DNA of 45,379 nt from positions 1-45,379 of the forward strand of contig JAIDPA010000150.1 of NCBI GenBank assembly GCA_029062985.1. The letters run 5' to 3'. Position 1 is the stretch's first letter, and the number at the start of each line of letters is the position of its first letter. The notes under the pieces were generated by a model. The model was given only the letters and a program-made list of their open reading frames with translations. It ran no database searches and had not been told where the DNA came from. The stretch comes from Muribaculaceae bacterium. GTDB taxonomy: Bacteria > Bacteroidota > Bacteroidia > Bacteroidales > Muribaculaceae. Shown here one piece after another: positions 6,645 to 28,786 of this stretch. Both the position numbers and the translations under genes were made by a program.

Positions 6645-7016
6645 CTATATCAGACCTTGTTCTTTACATCTTTCCTCATATTCCTCAATAAGAATTAAAA
6701 TATCTTTCTTCAATTCCGGAATATGACGTATCACTAATCCCCACAGGAACTCCGGACGAACAGAATCATAGCCATGTATGATTCTATTTCTGGTATTTAT
6801 TATTTCCTTGGCATGCGGCAACGGGAAATCGGTTTTAATCTTCAATATCCTATTTATAGCCTCTCCCATAATTTCTGTTTTTCTTTCAACAGCACTAATT
6901 CGGAGAATATCCTTCTCAAACACATCAAATCTTTTGGGATAATCTTCAAAAAAACTTTCAACTGCCCTAATGGCATCAAGCACATCATTAAGATAAACTA
7001 AAATATAATCATCCAT
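6645..7016 (-). CDS. hepT: HepT-like HEPN RNase toxin (DUF86)
   Basis: The 123-residue protein carries the HepT hallmark R-x4-H-x-Y as RNRIIHGY (residues 76-83), the catalytic motif of HEPN RNases, together with the family's ERKTEIMGEAINRIL segment. HepT toxins cut RNA; in studied pairs MntA silences them by attaching AMP to the tyrosine of this motif. The gene overlaps the upstream mntA by 8 nt, the usual antitoxin-first order, and all key residues are present, so this pair looks functional. It acts in the cytoplasm. The homology and pairing are clear; actual toxicity is inferred. Confidence 0.88.
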   Translation of the reverse strand: MDDYILVYLNDVLDAIRAVESFFEDYPKRFDVFEKDILRISAVERKTEIMGEAINRILKIKTDFPLPHAKEIINTRNRIIHGYDSVRPEFLWGLVIRHIPELKKDILILIEEYEERCKEQGLI

Positions 7017-7314
7017 AAATCACTTTTTTTCTCTTGTCTATCATTTTTTTAAAGATTGGATTCAATCGCTTTCCATCTTCAATAAGATCCACCTTACGAT
7101 TAAACAGCTTTTCTAATGCGTAGCGAAGGGAAAAATAATTTGCAACATAATCAAATTTATCCGGATCCTGAGGCTCAAAATCTACAAGCAAATCAACATC
7201 ACTTCCTTCATTGAATCTTTCTGTAAGAATAGATCCAAAGACAGCAAGCGATCTGACCTTATGTTTCCGACATAAGTCAAAAATACGCTGTATGTTTAAT
7301 TCTATCAATCGCAT
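7009..7314 (-). CDS. mntA: MntA-like nucleotidyltransferase antitoxin
   Basis: The 101-residue protein has the complete MntA signature GS-x10-DxD (FGSILTERFNEGSDVDLLVDF) and a third acidic residue in RKVDLIED, as expected for an active minimal nucleotidyltransferase. It would adenylylate and neutralise HepT, encoded immediately downstream with an 8-nt overlap (type VII toxin-antitoxin). The start is the ATG at 7314, about 30 nt below the predicted start point of repeat copy 4. The short leader and the lack of other genes in between suggest that copy 4 drives this pair. Confidence 0.88.
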   Translation of the reverse strand: MRLIELNIQRIFDLCRKHKVRSLAVFGSILTERFNEGSDVDLLVDFEPQDPDKFDYVANYFSLRYALEKLFNRKVDLIEDGKRLNPIFKKMIDKRKKVIYG

Positions 7315-8857: not shown

Positions 8858-10156
8858 ATGCCTTCTATACTTATAAAAAATGCCAACGTCTGGACCGAAG
8901 GACGCTTCATCAATGCCGACGTGGAGATAAGAAACGGTGTCGTTACCGCTCTTGACCCCGTTGCCTCCTCCCCTCTAAATTCCTCCCGTCATCTCCCTCC
9001 GTCTGCCGAAATCATCAATGCCAAGGGCATGTATATCCTGCCCGGACTCGTAGACATGCACGTCCATTTCCGCGAACCCGGCTATTCATATAAGGAAACT
9101 ATCAAGACAGGCTCCGAAGCTGCCGCTGCCGGAGGATTCACAACTGTCTGCACCATGCCCAACCTGAATCCAGCCCCCGACTCTCCCGAGAACCTCCTGA
9201 AGCAACTGGAAATAATACGTCGTGATGCAGTTGTCGAAGTGCTTCCTTACGCTACAATCACACGCCTGCGTATGGGCAAGGAACTTGTCGACTATGAGGC
9301 TGTCGCTGCTGATGTCTGCGGTTTCTCCGACGACGGCACCGGCGTGCAGGATGATGAAGTCATGCGTCGCGCAATGACTGAAATCGCAAAAACCGGAAAG
9401 ATTCTTGCTGCCCACTGTGAAGTGGAGGCTCTCCTCAACAAAGGGTATATCCACGACGGAACATACGCTCAGAAAAACAACCACCGCGGAATATGTTCGG
9501 AATCGGAATGGAAGGAAGTGGAACGCGATATAAAATTGGCTGAAGAAACGGGCTGCCGTCTCCACGTCTGCCACATATCCACCAAAGAGAGCGTAGCATT
9601 GATTCGCGATGCGAAAGCACGCGGAGTCAGAGTCACCTGCGAGACGGGTCCGCATTATCTGACTTTCTGCGATGAAGATCTGAAGGAAGATGGTCGCTTC
9701 AAGATGAATCCTCCTATCAGAAGCCGTGCTGACCGCGATGCCCTGCGTGAGGGAGTAGCCGACGGAACTATCGACGTCATTTCTACCGACCATGCTCCTC
9801 ATTCCGAAACAGAGAAAGCTAAGGGGCTTGAGAAAAGCGCGATGGGAGTGGTCGGTCTTGAAACCTCTTTCGCCGCAGTCTACACGACAATGGTGAAACC
9901 GGGTCTTATTTCCATGGAGCGTCTTGCCCATCTGATGTCGACCAACGCACGTGCCATCCTCGGTCTCCCTGCCGCCGGCGGTATAAAACCCGGAGTGCCT
10001 GCCGACCTCACACTGCTTTCCGGCGCCGGCACATCAATCGTCGACCCCCTGACCTTCCGCTCAATGGGGAAAGCCACACCCTATGCCGGACTCGAACTTT
10101 CCGGACACGTCGCTGCCACAATGTGCGCCGGGGAATGGGTCTTTAATAGGCTTTAG
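8858..10156 (+). CDS. pyrC: Dihydroorotase
   Basis: The 432-residue protein cyclises carbamoyl aspartate to dihydroorotate, the third step of UMP synthesis, in the cytoplasm. Metal-binding and active-site motifs of the amidohydrolase fold are present: DMHVHFREPG (around residue 67), the loop DDGTGVQDDEVMRRAM, and STDHAPHS near residue 310. The length is normal for the bacterial class I type. It begins the pyrimidine block but has its own promoter, and is separated from carA by a repeat-derived hairpin and a second promoter, so it is probably a separate transcript. The stop codon lies inside the first unit of the downstream repeat array. Confidence 0.95.
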   Translation: MPSILIKNANVWTEGRFINADVEIRNGVVTALDPVASSPLNSSRHLPPSAEIINAKGMYILPGLVDMHVHFREPGYSYKETIKTGSEAAAAGGFTTVCTMPNLNPAPDSPENLLKQLEIIRRDAVVEVLPYATITRLRMGKELVDYEAVAADVCGFSDDGTGVQDDEVMRRAMTEIAKTGKILAAHCEVEALLNKGYIHDGTYAQKNNHRGICSESEWKEVERDIKLAEETGCRLHVCHISTKESVALIRDAKARGVRVTCETGPHYLTFCDEDLKEDGRFKMNPPIRSRADRDALREGVADGTIDVISTDHAPHSETEKAKGLEKSAMGVVGLETSFAAVYTTMVKPGLISMERLAHLMSTNARAILGLPAAGGIKPGVPADLTLLSGAGTSIVDPLTFRSMGKATPYAGLELSGHVAATMCAGEWVFNRL

Positions 10157-10266
10157 GCTCAAGGCTTTAGGCTTTAGGCTCAAGGCTTTAGGCTCAAGGA
10201 TTTAGGCTCGAGCCTAATGCCTAATGCCTAATGCCTAATGCCTAACACCTACAGCCTAATGCCTAA
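10147..10266. repeat. Heptamer repeat array forming a long hairpin (pyrC 3' end)
   Basis: The first half consists of TTTAGGC-type units (AGGCTTTAGGCTCAAGG...), the second of GCCTAAT units repeated about five times. The halves are complementary and meet at the perfect palindrome TTAGGCTCGAGCCTAA. Short tandem heptamers of this kind vary in copy number, and the folded transcript could act as a terminator or mRNA stabiliser for pyrC. There are no spacers, so this is not a CRISPR array. Confidence 0.75.
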
Positions 10267-10283
10267 AAAATTTGTATTAGATT

Positions 10284-10313
10284 TTGGCATGTCGTGTTTT
10301 TTCATTAACTTTG
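10284..10313 (+). promoter_or_regulatory. Promoter of the carA leader
   Basis: TTG (10284-10286), a 19-nt spacer and TAACTTTG (10306-10313) form a textbook Bacteroidota promoter. Transcription should begin near 10318-10321, some 240 nt before carA. Confidence 0.75.
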
Positions 10314-10321
10314 CACGCAAA

Positions 10322-10463
10322 ATGAATGACATGACGACATCAATCACAGGTCGATACTTGTTGGTTCTGCTTAACGCGCAGTCTTTTAACGGAAGCTTTT
10401 GCCGTCCGGCAACTTCCTTTTTTTGATATTTCAGGGCAACTCGTCTGAGGGTTGCCCTTTTTT
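10322..10463 (+). promoter_or_regulatory. Attenuator-like leader with leader ORF and two terminators before carA
   Basis: A 34-codon ORF (10322-10426; an inner ATG at 10331) ends ...CRPATSFF, with its last codons formed by the T run of the first terminator. Hairpin 1 (10391-10417) has stems GGAAG/CTTCC and TTGCC/GGCAA around a GTCC loop and is followed by seven T. Hairpin 2 (10434-10457) has stem GGGCAAC/GTTGCCC followed by six T. The 3' arm of hairpin 1 (GGCAAC) can also pair with GTTGCC of hairpin 2, so the folds may exclude each other. A ribosome on the leader ORF would open hairpin 1, the logic of enteric pyrBI attenuation. Mechanism is inference. Confidence 0.65.
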
Positions 10464-10561
10464 GTATCCTGCGCTCAGGTAAGTATCCCTCGAGGTAGTG
10501 TCAGAAAGTCTGAATGGATTAAGCGGCAGAAAAAAGAAACAAATCAATATACACTTTGAAA

Positions 10562-11638
10562 ATGAAACCCTACACAAAAAAACTTGTCCTTGAGGACGGC
10601 AGCGAATTCCCCGGCTACGGATTCGCATCCGACACCGAAAGAGTGGGTGAACTCGTCTTCAACACTTCTATGGTGGGCTATCAGGAAATCTTATCAGACC
10701 CCTCATACGCCGACCAGATTATTGTGATGACGTATCCCCTGATAGGAAACTATGGAATCACCGATGAAGACTACGAAACCAAGTTTCCATCTATCGGAGG
10801 CATGATTGTGAAGGAAAATAATGATTCTCCCTCCAACTTCCGCTACACCAAAACCCTCTCGGAAACCCTTGAGGAAAACAATATACCGGCTATCAGCGGA
10901 ATCGACACAAGAAAACTTACCCGCATTCTGCGGGATGCACAGGGCATCAGAGCCATAATCACCGACATCTCCACTCCTACCGAAGAGGCTGTCAGCAAAA
11001 TCAAAGCAAAGGAGCGTCCGCGCAATCTTGTCAGCCGTGTCAGCTGCAAGAAGCGCTGGTTTGCACGCACGACAGGCTACAAATATGATATCGTGGCGAT
11101 TGACTGCGGAATGAAATACAACATGGTGAGAAGTCTGAACGCTCACAACTGCAACGTGACAGTCGTGCCTTGGAACACCTCTGCCGAACAGATTCTTGCT
11201 TTTAATCCAGACGGAGTGCTCATCTCAAACGGTCCGGGTTCTCCCGAAGATGTGCCTGAAGTGGTGGAGACTATCCGGCAGCTTCGTGGCAAGGTCCCCA
11301 TGTTCGGCATCTGCCTCGGTCATCAGCTCATTGCCCTTGCCTACGGCGCGAAGATCAACCCTATAAACCCGGGGCATCGCGGAGGCAACCATCCCGTAAA
11401 AGACCTCACCAACGGGAAAGTGCTTATCACCGCACAGAATCATGGCTATGCAGTCGATAAGGATTCCGTAAAAGACACTCGTCTGGAAATCACCCATATT
11501 AATCTCCTTGACAACACTGTCGAAGGTTGCCGCTGTGTGGCTGACAAGGTGATGTCGGTGCAATTCCATCCCGAGAGCGCTCCCGGTCCGCAGGATTCAA
11601 TTCATCTGTTTGAGAATTTCATTGATCTCGTGAAATAA
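10562..11638 (+). CDS. carA: Carbamoyl-phosphate synthase, small (glutaminase) subunit
   Basis: CarA takes ammonia from glutamine and passes it to CarB for carbamoyl phosphate, shared by pyrimidine and arginine synthesis. The N-terminal CarA domain (LVLEDGSEFPGYGF, TSMVGYQEILSDPSY) is followed by a class I glutamine amidotransferase domain with NGPGSPED, the nucleophile loop FGICLGHQ and VQFHPES, giving an intact Cys-His-Glu set. Length (358) is normal. The ATG at 10562 is preferred to the TTG at 10556 in the ORF track, because the family starts close to MKPYTKKLVLEDG. It heads a carA-carB-pyrKDFEB run 45 nt before carB, under control of the attenuator-like leader. Confidence 0.95.
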   Translation: MKPYTKKLVLEDGSEFPGYGFASDTERVGELVFNTSMVGYQEILSDPSYADQIIVMTYPLIGNYGITDEDYETKFPSIGGMIVKENNDSPSNFRYTKTLSETLEENNIPAISGIDTRKLTRILRDAQGIRAIITDISTPTEEAVSKIKAKERPRNLVSRVSCKKRWFARTTGYKYDIVAIDCGMKYNMVRSLNAHNCNVTVVPWNTSAEQILAFNPDGVLISNGPGSPEDVPEVVETIRQLRGKVPMFGICLGHQLIALAYGAKINPINPGHRGGNHPVKDLTNGKVLITAQNHGYAVDKDSVKDTRLEITHINLLDNTVEGCRCVADKVMSVQFHPESAPGPQDSIHLFENFIDLVK

Positions 11639-11683
11639 TTCCCTGTTTTAAATTTCATCTTTAATTTTTCAATTTCATAGGCT

Positions 11684-14600
11684 ATGCCGAAACGTAAAGA
11701 TATAAAGAAAGTAATGGTGATTGGCAGCGGACCGATTGTCGTAGGTCAGGCTGCGGAATTCGATTATGCCGGCACTCAGGCTTGCGCTGCCCTCAAGGAA
11801 GAGGGGTATGAGGTGGTGCTTGTCAACTCCAACCCGGCTACCATCATGACTGACCCCGAGATTGCCCACAAAGTGTATATGGAACCCCTTACTCTCGAAT
11901 ATGTGGCTAAGATCGTGCGCTACGAACGTCCCGATGCCATCGTGCCGGGTCTCGGAGGTCAGACCGGTCTTAACCTTGCCGTGCAGCTTGCAAAGAAGGG
12001 TGTGCTTGAAGAATGCGGAGTGGAGATTCTCGGCACATCTTTCGACAGCATCGAGCGTGCCGAAGACCGCGAACTTTTTAAAGAACTTTGCGAAAGCATC
12101 GGCGAACCGGTGCTCCCCAGCGACGTTGCCTCAAGCATCGACCATGCTGCGGAGATTGCTGAAAAGATAGGCTACCCGGTGATTCTGCGTCCTGCATTCA
12201 CCCTCGGAGGCACCGGCGGCGGCTTTGCCGACAATGAGAAGGAACTGCGCGAACTGATGCGAACTGCCCTCGACCTCTCCCCCGTGCATCAGGTCCTCGT
12301 AGAGAAGAGTATAAAGGGTTTTAAGGAAATTGAGTTTGAGGTGATGCGCGATGCCAACGACACGGTAATAGCCATCTGCTCGATGGAAAACCTTGACCCC
12401 GTCGGCGTGCATACGGGAGATTCAATCGTTGTGGCGCCCGCTCAGACACTTTCCAATAAGGAATATCAGCTCCTGCGCGACAGTGCCCTCAAGCTTATAC
12501 GCGCCCTGAAGATTGAAGGAGGCTGCAATGTTCAGTTCGCTCTTGATCCCCTATCTTTCGATTATTATCTTATCGAGGTCAATCCTCGTGTGTCGCGTTC
12601 TTCAGCGCTTGCCTCCAAAGCATCGGGCTATCCCATTGCTCGTGTCAGCGCGAAAATTGCAGTCGGGCTCCACCTTGATGAAATTGACCTCGGGCATATT
12701 CCGGCAAGCTTCGAGCCGACGCTTGATTACGTCGTGACCAAGATTGCACGCTTCCCCTTCGATAAATTCGCTGACGCCTCCAATGAACTCGGCACTCAGA
12801 TGAAAGCCACGGGCGAGGTGATGAGTATCGGACGCACAATGGAGGAATCCCTTCTGAAAGCTGTCCGTTCGCTTGAGACGGGTGTATGCCATCTCCATAA
12901 CAAGAAATTTGACGAGATGCCCACCAATGAGATGCTTGACTACATCCGTCACGCCACAGACGACCGCATCTATGCCCTTGCCGAACTCATGCGCCGCGAT
13001 GTTGACGCCGGAATTATCTATAACCGCACCAAAATCGACATGTTCTTCCTTGATAAAATCAAAAACATTGTTGATTTCGAAAATGTATTGCGTGCGAACC
13101 CTGTCGACATAGAAGTGCTCAAAGAGGCAAAGGAAATTGGGTTCAGCGATAAATTCATTGGTCAGGTCTGGGGCAAGACTGAAGCGGAAATATATCAGCT
13201 GCGTAAGGAAGCAGGCATCCGCCCTGTCTATAAGATGATTGATTCCTGCGGTGCGGAATTTCATGCCAAGACCAACTATTTCTATTCCACCTACGACAGC
13301 GAGAACGAATCAGTGCCGTCTGAGAGGAAAAAGATTGTCGTGCTCGGTTCCGGTCCGATCCGAATCGGTCAGGGCGTGGAATTTGATTATTCCACAGTGC
13401 ATGCCATCTGGTCAATACGCAAGGCGGGCTACGAGGCAATCATCATCAACAATAACCCGGAGACTGTATCGACCGACCATACGACAGGCGATAAGCTCTA
13501 TTTTGAGCCTCTGACCGTGGAAGACGTCATGAATGTGCTCGACCTCGAAAAACCGGTTGGCGTGATTGTCTCCCTTGGCGGACAGACAGCCATTAATCTT
13601 GCGGAACCTCTCGCTGCCCTCGGAGCGCCCATAATCGGCACCGGAATCGAGGCTATAAGAAATGCGGAAGACCGCGGCTGTTTTGAAGCCATCATGGAGA
13701 AGCTCGGCATCCCGCAGCCCGAAGGTGTGGCAGTCACTCACATTGAAGAGGGTGTCGAGGCTGCTGCACGCATCGGCTATCCCGTGCTTGTGCGCCCGAG
13801 CTATGTGCTTGGCGGACGCGCAATGCAGATTGTCAGCAACGAGGAGCAGCTGCGCCATTACCTTCACACTGCCGTTGAAATCAACGTCGAGCATCCCGTG
13901 CTTGTCGATAAATATATCATGGGTAAAGAACTCGAGGTCGATGCCGTATGCGACGGAACAGATGTCTTCGTGCCCGGCATAATGGAGCACGTAGAGCACA
14001 CAGGTGTACACTCCGGCGACTCCATCAGCGTCTACCCCACTTTCAGCGTAAGCCACGAAGTGAAGCAGAAAATACTCGACTACACCGTGCGTCTCGGGCG
14101 TGAGATAGGAATAAAGGGTCTCTATAACATCCAGTTTATTGTTGACTCTAAGGATAATGTCTATGTGATTGAGGTCAATCCCCGCTCATCGCGCACAGTG
14201 CCCTTCCTGTCGAAAGCCACCGGTGTGCATCTCGCCGACATAGCCACAAGAGTGATGCTCGGACACTCCCTTAAAGAACAGGGCATAGATATTCTCTATC
14301 CCGAAGAGAAAAAGCGCTGGTTTGTCAAGACCCCTGCCTTCTCATTCTCCAAGTTGCGCGGAATGGATTCCTACCTCTCTCCGGAAATGAAATCCACGGG
14401 TGAGGCTATCGGTTACGACAAATCGCTCAAGCGCGCTTTGTATAAATCACTCCAGGCGTCAGGTATGACTGTCGCAAACTACGGCACTATCCTCGTGACC
14501 ATCGGCGATTCCGATAAACAGCGTGCCCTCCCCCTCATCCGCCGCTTCTATCAGCTCGGTTTCAACGTGGAAGCTACTTGCGGCACAGCCAATTTCCTGC

Positions 14601-14869
14601 GTGCCAACGGAATCCGCACACGCTTACTGCATAAGCTCAGCGAGGGGAGCGACGACATCACGGCTTCTCTTCGTCAGGGTCACGTCAACTACGTCATCAA
14701 CACCATGGAGCTTGCCGCCGACCATTCTCACCGTGACGGCTTCTATATCCGGCGGACGGCTGTCGACAATAATATTACCGTCTTCACCTCTCTGGAGACT
14801 GTGGAGGTGCTCCTTGATGTGCTTGAAGATATAACCATGAAGGTATCCACTATTGATGCCGAAGATTAA
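11684..14869 (+). CDS. carB: Carbamoyl-phosphate synthase, large subunit
   Basis: The 1061-residue protein has the duplicated ATP-grasp structure of CarB: the first half begins [20 protein letters not shown], the second repeats it as [20 protein letters not shown] near residue 550, and a C-terminal allosteric domain follows (from about 930). It makes carbamoyl phosphate from bicarbonate, ATP and ammonia delivered by CarA. The length is full and no disruption is seen. It lies 45 nt after carA and 11 nt before pyrK. The AT-rich tract ending TTTTTCAATTTCATAGGCT before its ATG replaces a Shine-Dalgarno site, as common in Bacteroidota. Confidence 0.96.
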
Positions 14870-14880
14870 AATCAGTTATC

Positions 14881-15633
14881 ATGAATATCAGAAACATATA
14901 TACTGTGGTCAGCAACCGCCAGCTCACCTATAAGACATGGGTGATGACTCTGAGGGGCGACACTGGCGCAATCACCGCTCCGGGACAGTTCGTAAACGTG
15001 GCAATTCCCGGGAAATATCTCCGCCGCCCAATCTCTATATGCGATTATTCGCATGAGCGCGGAGAAATTGTTCTCCTCTACGATGTCGTAGGAGAAGGGA
15101 CAAAGGCAATGAGCGGCATGAAGGAAGGGGAAAATGTGGATATGCTTGTCGGACTCGGAAACGGATTCACCGTTTCCGGTTCGTTCCGGCGCCCTATCCT
15201 TCTCGGAGGCGGCATAGGATGTGCCCCACTGCTTAACCTTGCACGCACATTGGTAAGAAACGGGAAAAATCCCGTTGCAATACTGGGCTATAACACTGCT
15301 GCCGACAGCTTCGGAATGGATCGCTGGTTTGAGGAAATCGGTGTGGAGGCATACATAGCTACTGTCGACGGTTCGGCAGGCACTAAAGGATTCGTAACCG
15401 ATGTCATAACTTCCAAAAGAATAAAAGGTGATTATTTCCATTCCTGCGGACCGATGCCTATGCTCAAAGCGCTCTGCAACTCTCTGGAAATGCCGGGCGA
15501 AGTAAGCATTGAAAGTCGCATGGGTTGTGGGTTCGGAGCTTGTGTCTGCTGCACGGTGGAAACACGCGACGGCGCCCGCAGGATTTGTAAGGATGGTCCT
15601 ATTTTCAGAAAGGAGGAGTTGATATGGAAATGA
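14881..15633 (+). CDS. pyrK: Dihydroorotate dehydrogenase B, electron transfer subunit
   Basis: The 250-residue PyrK carries FAD and a 2Fe-2S cluster and passes electrons from the PyrD FMN to NAD. The N-terminal flavin-binding part (PGQFVNVAIP, RRPISICDY) is followed by an NAD-binding segment (LLGGGIGCAPLLNLA) and the C-terminal cluster ligands in GCGFGACVCCTVE plus a later Cys in RRICKDGP. Start at ATG 14881, 11 nt after carB. The 3' end overlaps pyrD by 10 nt, matching the two-subunit PyrD-PyrK complex. Presence of PyrK shows the NAD-linked class 1B enzyme is used, suited to anaerobic growth. Confidence 0.94.
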   Translation: MNIRNIYTVVSNRQLTYKTWVMTLRGDTGAITAPGQFVNVAIPGKYLRRPISICDYSHERGEIVLLYDVVGEGTKAMSGMKEGENVDMLVGLGNGFTVSGSFRRPILLGGGIGCAPLLNLARTLVRNGKNPVAILGYNTAADSFGMDRWFEEIGVEAYIATVDGSAGTKGFVTDVITSKRIKGDYFHSCGPMPMLKALCNSLEMPGEVSIESRMGCGFGACVCCTVETRDGARRICKDGPIFRKEELIWK

Positions 15634-16550
15634 AAAACGCATCTTTCGATTTGAGCGTATCGCTCAGCGGAGTTACTCTGAAAAACCCTGTTGTGCCCGC
15701 TTCAGGATGCTTCGGCTTCGGCTATGGAATGGCAGAATTCTATGATGTCGACATGTTAGGGTCAATATCATTCAAAGGCACCACCCGTGAGGCGCGTTTC
15801 GGCAACCCTCTTCCAAGAGTGGCAGAATGTCCTTCCGGACTTATCAATTCAGTAGGTCTCCAGAACCCGGGTATTGACGAAGTCATAGCTGTCGAACTCC
15901 CCAAAATGCGTGAGGCATTCCATCAGCCGATCATTGCCAACATCAGCGGCTTCTCTATCGACGAATATGTCGAGTGTTGTGAAAAAATAGATAAAGAGGA
16001 GCAGGTGGCTATAATCGAGCTTAACGTAAGCTGCCCTAACGTCCATGGAGGCGGAATGGCATTCGGCACGTGCGCTTCATCAGTTTCGGAAGTTGTCAGA
16101 GAAGTTAAGAAAGTAGCATCCAAACCCCTATATGTGAAGCTCTCTCCCAATGTTACGGATATAGTTGCGATAGGCAGCGCGGCAGTGGAAGCGGGAGCTG
16201 ACGGATTGTGTCTGATTAATACCCTTCTCGGAATGCGTATCGACATAAAGACCCGGCGTCCGGTGATAGCAAACCGCATGGGTGGTTTTTCAGGACCTGC
16301 TGTTTTCCCGATTGCCGTGAGAATGGTCAATCAGGTTGCCCACAGCTGCGGAGTGCCCGTTATTGGTTGCGGAGGAGTCTCGTCGGCTGAGGATGTCATT
16401 GAAATGATGATGGCAGGCGCTTCGGCAGTAGAAGTCGGGGCAGCCAATCTGGTTAATCCCTACGCATGCAAGGAAATAGTGGAGAATCTCCCGGAAGTGA
16501 TGGAGCGTCTCGGCATCAAATCCTTAAAGGAAATAATAGGGATTGTGTAA
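15624..16550 (+). CDS. pyrD: Dihydroorotate dehydrogenase B, catalytic subunit
   Basis: The 308-residue FMN protein oxidises dihydroorotate to orotate as a complex with PyrK. Family marks include NPVVPASGCFGFG, GLQNPG, the active-site loop LNVSCPNVHGGG with the catalytic Cys of class 1 enzymes, and a phosphate-binding VIGCGGVSSAEDV. The ATG at 15624 is supported by AAGGAGG 7 nt upstream, an unusually clear Shine-Dalgarno for this genome and placed inside pyrK; this should keep subunit amounts matched. A second ATG at 15630 overlaps the pyrK stop and is possible. Confidence 0.95.
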   Translation: MEMKNASFDLSVSLSGVTLKNPVVPASGCFGFGYGMAEFYDVDMLGSISFKGTTREARFGNPLPRVAECPSGLINSVGLQNPGIDEVIAVELPKMREAFHQPIIANISGFSIDEYVECCEKIDKEEQVAIIELNVSCPNVHGGGMAFGTCASSVSEVVREVKKVASKPLYVKLSPNVTDIVAIGSAAVEAGADGLCLINTLLGMRIDIKTRRPVIANRMGGFSGPAVFPIAVRMVNQVAHSCGVPVIGCGGVSSAEDVIEMMMAGASAVEVGAANLVNPYACKEIVENLPEVMERLGIKSLKEIIGIV

Positions 16551-16593
16551 TTTATTTCGACTAATTATCGTTACTAAAAGAAAAACCTGACTT

Positions 16594-17304
16594 ATGAACG
16601 CAAAAGACGTTATAATAGCCTGCGACTTCGGTTCTGCTGAAGATTGCCTCGCTTTTCTCGACAAGTTTAAGGATGAAGATAGAAAACCTTTCCTTAAAAT
16701 CGGCATGGAGCTTTTTTATGCTGCCGGACCTGAAATTGTCAAAGAACTCAAGAAACGCGGATTCAAAATTTTTCTTGACCTCAAGCTTCACGATATTCCA
16801 AACACAGTCAAGAAGGCAATGAAAGTGCTTTCAGGGCTGGATGTTGACATGGTCAACGTGCATGCTGCCGGCACTGTCGAAATGATGCGTGCCGCTCTTG
16901 AAGGACTCACTCGTGAAGACGGCTCCCGTCCTCTTCTGATCGCAGTCACTCAGCTGACATCTACATCTGAAAAAGCTATGCGTGAGCAGCTCCTCATTGA
17001 TGCCACCATCAACGACACCATTGCCAAGTATGCACAGAATGCCAAAGAGGCAGGTCTCGACGGAGTCGTTTGCTCTCCGCTGGAATCTGCTCTCGTGAAG
17101 GAGGCATGCGGAAACGAATTCATGACCATCACTCCGGGAATACGTTTTGCTGATTCCAAAGCGGACGACCAGGTGCGTGTGACAGATCCGGCTAAAGCGC
17201 GTGAAATTGGCTCCGACTATATCGTTGTCGGACGTCCCATCACGGCTGCGGAAGACCCTGTGGCTGCTTACCGCCGTTGTGTAAAAGACTTTCTCGCTGA
17301 ATGA
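16594..17304 (+). CDS. pyrF: Orotidine 5'-phosphate decarboxylase
   Basis: The 236-residue protein converts OMP to UMP, the last step of the pathway. The catalytic Asp-Lys-Asp cluster is visible in [13 protein letters not shown] (about residues 59-71), with VNVHAAGT after it and the phosphate-binding [10 protein letters not shown] near the C-terminus, the compact type 1 enzyme. It starts 43 nt after pyrD. The stop overlaps an upstream alternative ATG of the pyrE frame (ATGA), but pyrE most likely starts 53 nt later. Confidence 0.95.
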
Positions 17305-17357
17305 AGGTGAGGTCCCCAAACCCCTATCAACCTAAACCCCAATCAACCCGAATTAAT

Positions 17358-17993
17358 ATGGAAACTGCAAAAAAAGTAGCTGCTGAATTACTCGGCATCA
17401 AGGCTGTTTTCCTCAGCCCCGCTAACCCTTTCACCTGGGCAAGCGGCATAAAGAGCCCCATATATTGCGATAACCGTCTTATCCTTACTGCTCCGAAGGC
17501 TCGTAAGGTGGTGGAAGAAGCTATCGCGGCGACTGTAAAAGATAAATTCCCCGAAGCTGAGGTGCTCATGGGCACTTCCACCGCAGGCATAGCCCACGCT
17601 GCTATTGCTGCATGGATTCTCGATATGCCTATGGGATATGTGCGCAGCGGAAACAAAGACCACGGAAGAGGAAACCGCATCGAGGGAAAACTCGAAAAGG
17701 GTCAGAAAGTTGTAGTGATTGAAGATCTGATCTCAACTGCCGGAAGCTGCATTGAAGTGGTCGAAGCTTTGCGCGAGGCGGGTGCCGACGTGTTGGGTGT
17801 TGTCAGCATCTTCACCTACGGAATGCAGAAAGGTATTGACCGTCTGGCTGCTGCAAACGTCACCAACTACTCCCTCTCCAATTTTGACACTCTCTGCGAA
17901 GTGGCAGTTGAAGAGAAATACATAACTCCTGAAGAAGAGGTGAAGCTAAAGAAGTTTATGGCTAATCCTTCAGATGAATCCTGGATGGCATGA
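17358..17993 (+). CDS. pyrE: Orotate phosphoribosyltransferase
   Basis: The 211-residue protein joins orotate to PRPP to make OMP. Visible are the N-terminal [18 protein letters not shown], the catalytic loop region [15 protein letters not shown], and the PRPP-binding motif [13 protein letters not shown]. The ORF track starts it at 17301, but those 19 codons are translated C-rich repeat-like spacer; the ATG at 17358 matches the family start. The gene overlaps pyrB by 4 nt (ATGA), indicating coupling. Confidence 0.95.
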
Positions 17994-19078
17994 AACATCT
18001 TATCGACCCTACCGACCTCTCCAAAAATGAATTGGAAGAGATTATAGATCTTGCCCTTGACATTATTGACAACCGCCAGAAATATTCGGAAGTCTGCAAG
18101 GGAAAGAAACTCGCCACCCTGTTTTATGAACCCTCCACACGCACTCGCCTCAGTTTCACGGCTGCCATGATGGAATTAGGGGGCAACGTGCTCGGTTTTT
18201 CAGATGCAAAGAATTCTTCTGTCAGCAAAGGGGAAACATGTGCCGACACAACTAAGGTGATCAACTGCTTTGCCGACATCATAGCCATGCGTCATTTTGA
18301 GGAAGGTGCCGCTACCGTTTCAGCAATGAACTCCAATATTCCGGTCATCAATGCAGGCGACGGCAGCCATAGCCATCCTACTCAGACCCTCACTGACCTT
18401 CTCACCATCAAACGTGAAATAGGGCGTTTCGATAATATCACAATAGGCTTCTGCGGAGACCTGAAATTCGGACGCACCGTGCATTCTCTCATCAAGGCTC
18501 TCTCAATGTATTCAGGAGTAAAGGTGATTCTGATTGCTCCCGAACAGCTCCGTCTGCCCGACTACATGAAGGAGGAGGTGTGCGACCGCTACGGTGTGGA
18601 ATACCGTGAGGTAGACACAATGGAGGAAGTGATGGGAGACCTTGACGTGCTTTATATGACACGTGTGCAGAAAGAGCGGTTCTTTGATGAAGATGAATAT
18701 GACAGAGTCAAGGATTTCTTCATCCTGGATGCTGAAAAACTGAAACTCGCACGCCCCGAAATGCGAATCCTACACCCCCTCCCCAGAGTGAATGAGATAA
18801 GCACCGATGTAGATGCCGATCCTCGGGCTGCTTATTTCCGTCAGGTTGAGAATGGCAAATTCGTGCGTATGGCTCTCATTGCCAAACTCCTCGAATGGGC
18901 TAAAGACCCCTCTAAAACCACTAAGCTTGTACCTGACGACGCTGTGCGCGGGAAGTTTATATGTCGTAACAAACGTTGCATATCCAACATGGAGACCGGT
19001 GTGGAATCACTCTTCCGCCCCGCTCATGACAATTCCGGAGGTTATCGCTGCGTTTATTGCGAATCAAAACCGAAATAA
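17990..19078 (+). CDS. pyrB: Aspartate carbamoyltransferase with C-terminal PyrI-like zinc domain
   Basis: Residues 1 to about 310 are a standard catalytic chain: carbamoyl-phosphate loop [11 protein letters not shown] (STRTR at 49-53), [20 protein letters not shown] and the late HPLPRVNEI. It forms carbamoyl aspartate. The protein continues to 362 residues with a tail that matches the zinc domain of the regulatory chain PyrI: Cys325-x4-Cys330 and Cys354-x2-Cys357, with 23 residues between the pairs, the same spacing as E. coli PyrI. The nucleotide-binding allosteric domain of PyrI is not present and no separate pyrI follows. The tail may stabilise the trimer or dock another chain. A strong terminator follows. 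Confidence 0.93.
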
Positions 19079-27955: not shown

Positions 27956-28013
27956 TGAATTAAATAAAATAAAACAATAGGCTTCATTAGTAGCGTATGT
28001 CAAAATTATTTAT

Positions 28014-28021
28014 TAATTTTG
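28014..28021 (+). promoter_or_regulatory. -7 box of the purE leader
   Basis: TAATTTTG followed by CACTTG fits the -7 element; no good TTTG is seen at the -33 distance. Predicted start near 28027-28030, giving a ~275-nt leader. Confidence 0.55.
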
Positions 28022-28026
28022 CACTT

Positions 28027-28299
28027 GCAACCGAACTATCCCCCTTCCCTGAGAGGAGGCTATGGAATTTGTTGAAACGAATGAATACACTTCTTGATTC
28101 ATACATATCCCGTTCCCGGCGAAAGCGAACCCTTACAGAGGGCTCGACGTGTATGAATGTGGTCTCTTTCTTTCAGTCAGTTTGTATTGACATTTTTAAA
28201 ATGTGCCATGTCATGTTCGGTTGTGCTCTAAAGATAAAAAACAGTAACAATATAACAGGACAGGACGCCTTGAGTTTTCATGGCGCCCTTTTCGTTTTT
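28027..28299 (+). promoter_or_regulatory. Structured leader RNA with terminator before purE
   Basis: An 11-residue leader ORF (28062-28097, MEFVETNEYTS) follows a strong AGGAGG. Next comes a three-way junction: a perfect 9-bp closing stem ATTCATACA/TGTATGAAT (28097-28105/28150-28158), a GTTC/GAAC hairpin capped by a GAAA tetraloop, and a CCCT/AGGG hairpin. Further on is ACATTTTTAAAATGT with an alternative TGACAT/ATGTCA pairing. A terminator-like hairpin GGACGCC/GGCGCCC (28263-28288) with TTTTCGTTTTT lies right before purE. I could not match it to a known riboswitch; in particular the guanine/adenine riboswitch junction sequences are absent. Confidence 0.6.
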
Positions 28300-28303
28300 A
28301 ATC

Positions 28304-28786
28304 TTGAATAACAAAGTGAAAATAGGTGTTGTTATGGGCTCCTCCAGCGACTGGGGAGTTATGAAAGCCGCTCCTGAGACGCTTGCTCAGTTTGGCGTTG
28401 AATATGAAACTAAAGTGCTGAGTGCGCACCGCACTCCGGCAGAACTTGAAAAATGGGTCTCTTCCCTGCGCGACCGAGGATTCGGTGCTGTTATTGCTGC
28501 TGCCGGCGGCGCAGCTCACCTTGCGGGAGTTGTGGCTGCATTCACAACTCTCCCCGTTATCGGAGTCCCCATCAAGGCTAAAACTCTCGACGGACTTGAT
28601 TCTCTCCTGTCTATGGTGCAGATGCCTTCCGGAATACCGGTGGCTGTGGTGGCTATTGACGGCGCTAAGAATGCTGCCCTCCTGGCAATTGAGATGCTGG
28701 CTATCACGGATCCTCAACTAAAAGAGAAAATGGATCTCTTCCGCAAACAGCAGGCGGAAAAAGTGCTCGCATCCACTCTCGAATAA
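28304..28786 (+). CDS. purE: N5-carboxyaminoimidazole ribonucleotide mutase
   Basis: The ~160-residue protein has the class I PurE pattern [20 protein letters not shown] and [24 protein letters not shown]. It converts N5-CAIR to CAIR; its usual partner PurK is not in the window. The start is uncertain: the track's ATG at 28280 lies in the loop of the leader terminator and adds a non-conserved [11 protein letters not shown] 28304 ([12 protein letters not shown]) or GTG 28316 fit the family better. If 28280 were used, the hairpin would also hide the start codon. First gene of the purine block, 64 nt before purL. Confidence 0.9.

Follow-up and report, generated by a model that had tools for sequence, protein, structure and literature searches.

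In the pyrBI operon of E. coli, RNA polymerase pauses in a U-rich tract that precedes the terminator hairpin. At the E. coli pyrE (rph-pyrE) attenuator, translation up to the terminator decides on read-through into the pyr gene, and the PyrR-dependent pyr attenuators of Bacillus rely on a protein and a binding loop instead of a leader peptide. A terminator in E. coli is repressed when a stop codon lies no further than about 27 nt from it, and the pyrBI terminator is located inside its leader gene, whereas amino-acid attenuators hold leader gene and terminator more than 20 bp apart (PMC4824070, PMC5021804). For Bacteroidota, the Bacteroid-trp motif (RF01692) is a candidate for leader regulation (PMC2864571), a dRNA-seq study of B. 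thetaiotaomicron noted short ORFs, similar to attenuator leaders, within long 5′ UTRs (PMC7366714), and a Flavobacterium study proposed leader peptides for amino-acid operons (PMC9723704); the parts of the latter two reports considered here describe no pyrimidine attenuator. In the open-access literature that was searched, neither a control mechanism of de novo pyrimidine synthesis nor a pyrimidine attenuator was found for Bacteroidota, which agrees with the original prediction for this DNA, so that pyrBI-like attenuation, known from E. coli, is apparently undescribed in a Bacteroidota version.

The locus analyzed here lies in the window, a stretch of 45,379 nt from a Muribaculaceae bacterium (GCA_029062985.1, contig JAIDPA010000150.1), in which a leader precedes carA. 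As far as its anatomy tells, this leader is a conserved leader-ORF attenuator of the pyrBI kind ahead of Bacteroidales pyrimidine genes, and it probably acts as a UTP-sensing attenuator based on coupled transcription and translation (about two chances in three). The likeness to the pyrE attenuator is that translation to the terminator would gate a pyr gene, with the difference that a full gene is translated at pyrE and a leader of 30–40 codons would be translated here, and with the Bacillus PyrR attenuators it shares terminator-based control of a pyr operon. In common with pyrBI (pyrL) of E. coli and Salmonella are an ORF that overlaps or abuts an intrinsic terminator, a U-rich tract before the hairpin, pyrimidine genes downstream, and no need for an antiterminator (PMC4824070, PMC5021804). 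In contrast to pyrBI, the leader has a Bacteroidota promoter, its 5′ UTR is predicted to span about 13 nt, its ORF in many cases ends at the base of the terminator rather than passing through it, it precedes pyrC-car-pyr or pyrB genes, and its UTP response is predicted from anatomy; there is so far no evidence of sequence homology to pyrBI/pyrL. No Rfam family, the PyrR binding-loop RNA included, matched the window or 15 related loci at gathering scores, rRNA and tRNA aside, and a known RNA family was thereby ruled out. RF01692 and the Flavobacterium leader peptides, which are candidate and suspected cases of leader regulation in Bacteroidota (PMC2864571, PMC9723704), differ from the present leaders in the genes concerned and in that the present leaders match no Rfam family.

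Anatomy of the leader

The features are collected in Table 1. The promoter, the short ORF and both hairpins that had been predicted ahead of carA were all located. Transcription is predicted to start at about 10318, and the promoter elements were found in the leaders of nearly all relatives; for Flavobacterium, a promoter consensus of TAnnTTTG at −12 to −5 is given (PMC9723704). A longer frame runs from ATG 10322 to 10426 and encodes MNDMTTSITGRYLLVLLNAQSFNGSFCRPATSFF, its closing FF and stop being encoded by the T run. This ATG is in the same frame as the ATG at 10331 and is not conserved; because position 10322 reads ATA in relatives, the ATG at 10331 is regarded as the conserved start. From this ATG, the reading frame is kept up to hairpin 1, since in 15 of 15 relatives the ATG and ACGGA are 58 or 61 nt apart, with indels in frame only. 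The prediction that the ORF tail lies in the T run holds for the window and for L023, but not for L018 and L019, in which one T fewer leads to read-through of terminator 2. U7 in the window (10418–10424) versus U6 in L018 and L019 switches the frame between stopping at the hairpin and reading through, and transcript slippage at the U run could give a mixture of both leader forms.

Table 1. Positions of the leader and of the pyrimidine genes in the window
Feature	Position	Strand	Remarks
pyrC	8858–10156	+	precedes the leader in the window, L018 and L019; follows it in other relatives
Bacteroidota-type promoter	10283–10313	+	TTTG 10283–10286, 19-nt spacer, TAACTTTG 10306–10313
Leader ORF, conserved start	10331–10426	+	MTTSITGRYLLVLLNAQSFNGSFCRPATSFF; stop TGA 10424–10426, 7 nt ahead of terminator 2
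Hairpin 1	10391–10417	+	GGAAG/CTTCC and TTGCC/GGCAA; −10.6 kcal/mol; U7 directly after
U tract	10418–10432	+	U7 plus GATATTTC; proposed site of UTP-sensing pausing
Terminator 2 (attenuator)	10434–10463	+	GGGCAACTC-loop-GGGTTGCCC, then T6
carA	10562–11638	+	first gene after the attenuator here; ATG 10562; Pfam CPSase_sm_chain and GATase
carB, pyrK, pyrD, pyrF, pyrE, pyrB-pyrI fusion	11684–19078	+	remainder of the controlled operon; Pfam

The fold of the 82-nt stretch that holds both hairpins is 4.7 sd better than the folds of its dinucleotide shuffles. Covariation of terminator 2, the stem-loop of which (10434–10457) has −15.9 kcal/mol, was computed on the window's group together with a sister group and amounted to 10 double-change cells, a value reached by 0 of 500 shuffles; it was best in register and lower in slid registers. 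When the 9-kb region was scanned for terminators alone, the site count was no higher than chance, and it is therefore conservation, not the scan, that marks the leader structure as more than chance. The scan result and the position of pyrC, which could drive carA in the window from upstream, would fit an unregulated leader, in which the double terminators are constitutive or transcription reads through from pyrC and the ORF is incidental. Such an arrangement is at odds with the covariation of a terminator placed between the leader and a gene that it would otherwise silence, and it becomes very unlikely with the recurrence of the ORF–terminator geometry described below.

Hairpin 1 showed no double changes within the window's group and is mispaired in several members, and the sister group has in its place a CGGAA/UUCCG hairpin, which precedes the U tract by about 11 nt. 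This spacing resembles that of hairpin-stabilised pauses. Hairpin 1 is probably a pause hairpin for RNA polymerase and possibly a first terminator; terminator 1 of the original prediction was ruled out as a conserved terminator beyond the window's group, as the stem lacks covariation and is replaced in the sister group.

Pairing between the two hairpins, which had been proposed as well, did not hold up as a switch. In the window, the 3′ arms can form a duplex of −11.7 kcal/mol, which is weaker than hairpin 2, and this pairing is lost in the closest relative (L018), in L025 and L034, and in the sister group; conservation and energy thus rule out an antiterminator of this kind, and the mechanism proposed below does not need one. 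The leader ORF and the complementary arms would be the components of a trp- or his-type attenuator, in which stalling at particular codons reports on an amino acid or tRNA and cross-pairing yields the antiterminator, and leader-peptide attenuation is suspected for amino-acid operons in Flavobacterium (PMC9723704). Besides the loss of the pairing, however, no common codon run was found in the aligned leader peptides, which vary between lineages, and a gap of 7 nt separates the stop codon and the terminator, as against more than 20 bp in amino-acid attenuators (PMC4824070), which makes this type of sensing very unlikely. Since the stop lies this close or the ORF reads through, the geometry is instead of the pyrBI kind.

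Conservation across Bacteroidales

A search for CarA yielded 79 loci in named genomes, and 55 leaders were tabulated, a handful of start codons being set by hand from the alignment. In the tabulated leaders, the ORF mostly starts 5–34 nt past the −7 element, the distance from ATG to terminator is 96–119 nt in the majority of long leaders, as opposed to 58 nt in the short-leader group, and the ORF either ends at about −10 to +17 nt relative to the stem or continues through it. An ORF that starts just after the promoter and is open to the terminator was present in 14 of 14 representative leader lineages, against 4.1 expected from dinucleotide shuffles under the same selection rule (product of nulls 3e-9), and in a second, independent sample, consisting of the pyrB upstream regions of 28 Muribaculaceae-family and 60 order-wide genomes, in 19 of the 22 leaders with both promoter and terminator in range, against 5.0 expected (P about 6e-11), where the shuffle nulls presuppose that automatic selection picked the right promoter and terminator. 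Most of the remaining pyrB genes lack a leader of this type, and the device therefore appears to be common, not universal, ahead of pyrB. When related leaders were aligned, as suggested with the original prediction, the ORF, the U tract and terminator 2 proved to be conserved and hairpin 1 and the cross-pairing did not, and the predicted leader-peptide attenuator with pyrBI-like logic is supported by the parts that relatives keep. The leader sequences are too diverged to align even within Bacteroidales, and a design of the same shape in unrelated sequences would suggest that the E. coli solution was invented independently. One leader (L032, about 1–250) directly follows an apparent tRNA gene, has no recognisable promoter, and may be co-transcribed with the tRNA.

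In 42 of 42 long leaders, the U tract has a higher U content than the remaining ORF, and it always lies immediately before the stem. Its U fraction is 0.40–0.60 in 12 lineages, compared with a mean of 0.28 in the 17 ordinary gene-end terminators used as controls (P = 2e-4). The U tract is absent from the short-leader group 2 (L067–L090), and the signal of this group must therefore differ or act otherwise. Ahead of pyrC, its members have an ORF of 15–17 amino acids (MRPIMQYIRNKHMAYMP-like), the stop codon of which closes a small varying hairpin (TATGGCA..TGCCGTA) located 4 nt before a C-rich terminator.

The amino acids of the leader are unconstrained in the window's group (synonymous changes 0.22 versus 0.27 expected) and in group 2 (0.04 versus 0.21 expected), and a free peptide with a fixed frame is the expectation if the position of the ribosome alone matters. 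In the leader groups P, A1, A2, A3, and G1b, synonymous changes are in excess, and the peptide may matter there. This excess, together with an NGxxFRxxTIF-like motif common to the window's group and the sister group, could be accommodated by nascent-peptide arrest, in which the leader peptide would bind a pyrimidine signal and stall the ribosome at its end. Arrest of this kind is nevertheless scarcely probable, given that the peptide C-termini are wholly different between lineages and that neither the window's group nor group 2 shows a synonymous excess. The alignments revealed no peptide motif shared across lineages, on which ground an arrest peptide and regulatory codons were both rejected. 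A query of related genomes with the leader peptide alone returned chance matches only, because the peptide diverges fast.

Proposed UTP-dependent attenuation

From this anatomy, we infer that the promoter is used, that the ORF is translated, and that the polymerase pauses in dependence on UTP. RNA polymerase would start near 10318, and a ribosome would enter the leader ORF almost immediately. When UTP is plentiful, the polymerase would clear U7 ahead of the ribosome, and hairpin 2 could form, with termination before carA. When UTP is scarce, the polymerase would stall at hairpin 1 and the U tract, and the ribosome would catch up and cover the RNA as far as the stop codon or, in leaders with a read-through ORF, into terminator 2. 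The folding of hairpin 2 would thereby be prevented, and the car-pyr genes would be transcribed. Pausing limited by UTP is the most economical explanation, because U7 lies just upstream of the stem and the genes downstream make UMP.

The same coupled attenuator may instead sense the general translation or nucleotide status, such that any slowing of the polymerase relative to the ribosome would open the operon. The retention of ORF and terminator by group 2, which lacks the U tract, and the similar ORF-into-terminator leader at the purE operon of the window and of the same-genus genome G030 are consistent with a general signal, but the presence of the U tract in every long leader, directly before the stem and above the level of control terminators, and the UMP-making role of the controlled genes argue for UTP and render the general signal unlikely. 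On close coupling of ribosome and polymerase in Bacteroidota, which UTP sensing of this type would involve, nothing decisive was found in the open-access literature searched.

In the window, the purE-purL operon (28010–28311) has a similar-looking leader with a Bacteroidota promoter and a 76-codon ORF (28081–28311), and a hairpin with T tract at about 28263–28292 lies inside this ORF, just before purE. In G030 (L147, about 2187–2530), the purE leader ORF ends 7 nt before a strong hairpin. It is possible, although more doubtful than the attenuator at carA, that ORF-into-terminator leaders control the pyrimidine (pyrC-car, pyrB) and purine (purE-purL) operons throughout Bacteroidales, nucleotide supply being read as the distance from the polymerase to the leading ribosome. 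If this order-wide extension were true, transcription and translation would be closely coupled in Bacteroidota.

Gene order and the car genes

Related leaders occur ahead of pyrC-carA in many Bacteroidales, and a leader between pyrC and carA was found only in the close relatives of the window, namely L018 and L019, the closest two (95% CarA identity). In the other relatives, carA directly follows pyrC and the leader stands ahead of pyrC, the first gene of the operon, so that the element is not specific to carA. The gene order in the window may be derived, or pyrC may have moved. Tandem palindromic repeats of the AGGCTTTAGGCTCA / CCTAATGCCTAATG type occupy 10148–10270, between pyrC and the leader, and pieces like them also occur on other contigs of the genome.

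CarA of the window (10562–14869 region) is about 42% identical to CarA of family members, the same genus included, and 60–95% identical to that of scattered Bacteroidales that have a pyrC-car operon. In a same-genus genome, pyrC is preceded by a related leader, and carAB lie outside the operon. The distribution of this CarA suggests that the car-in-operon type was either transferred or lost in a patchy manner. That the unusual CarA stems from a misbinned contig is less likely, since G030 shares the pyrK-pyrD-pyrF-pyrE-pyrB block and the following pur genes at 54–80%, with carAB missing from the block. Upstream of pyrC, genes for a HepT-like ribonuclease and a nucleotidyltransferase (6645–7314, minus strand) probably form a HepT/MNT toxin-antitoxin module.
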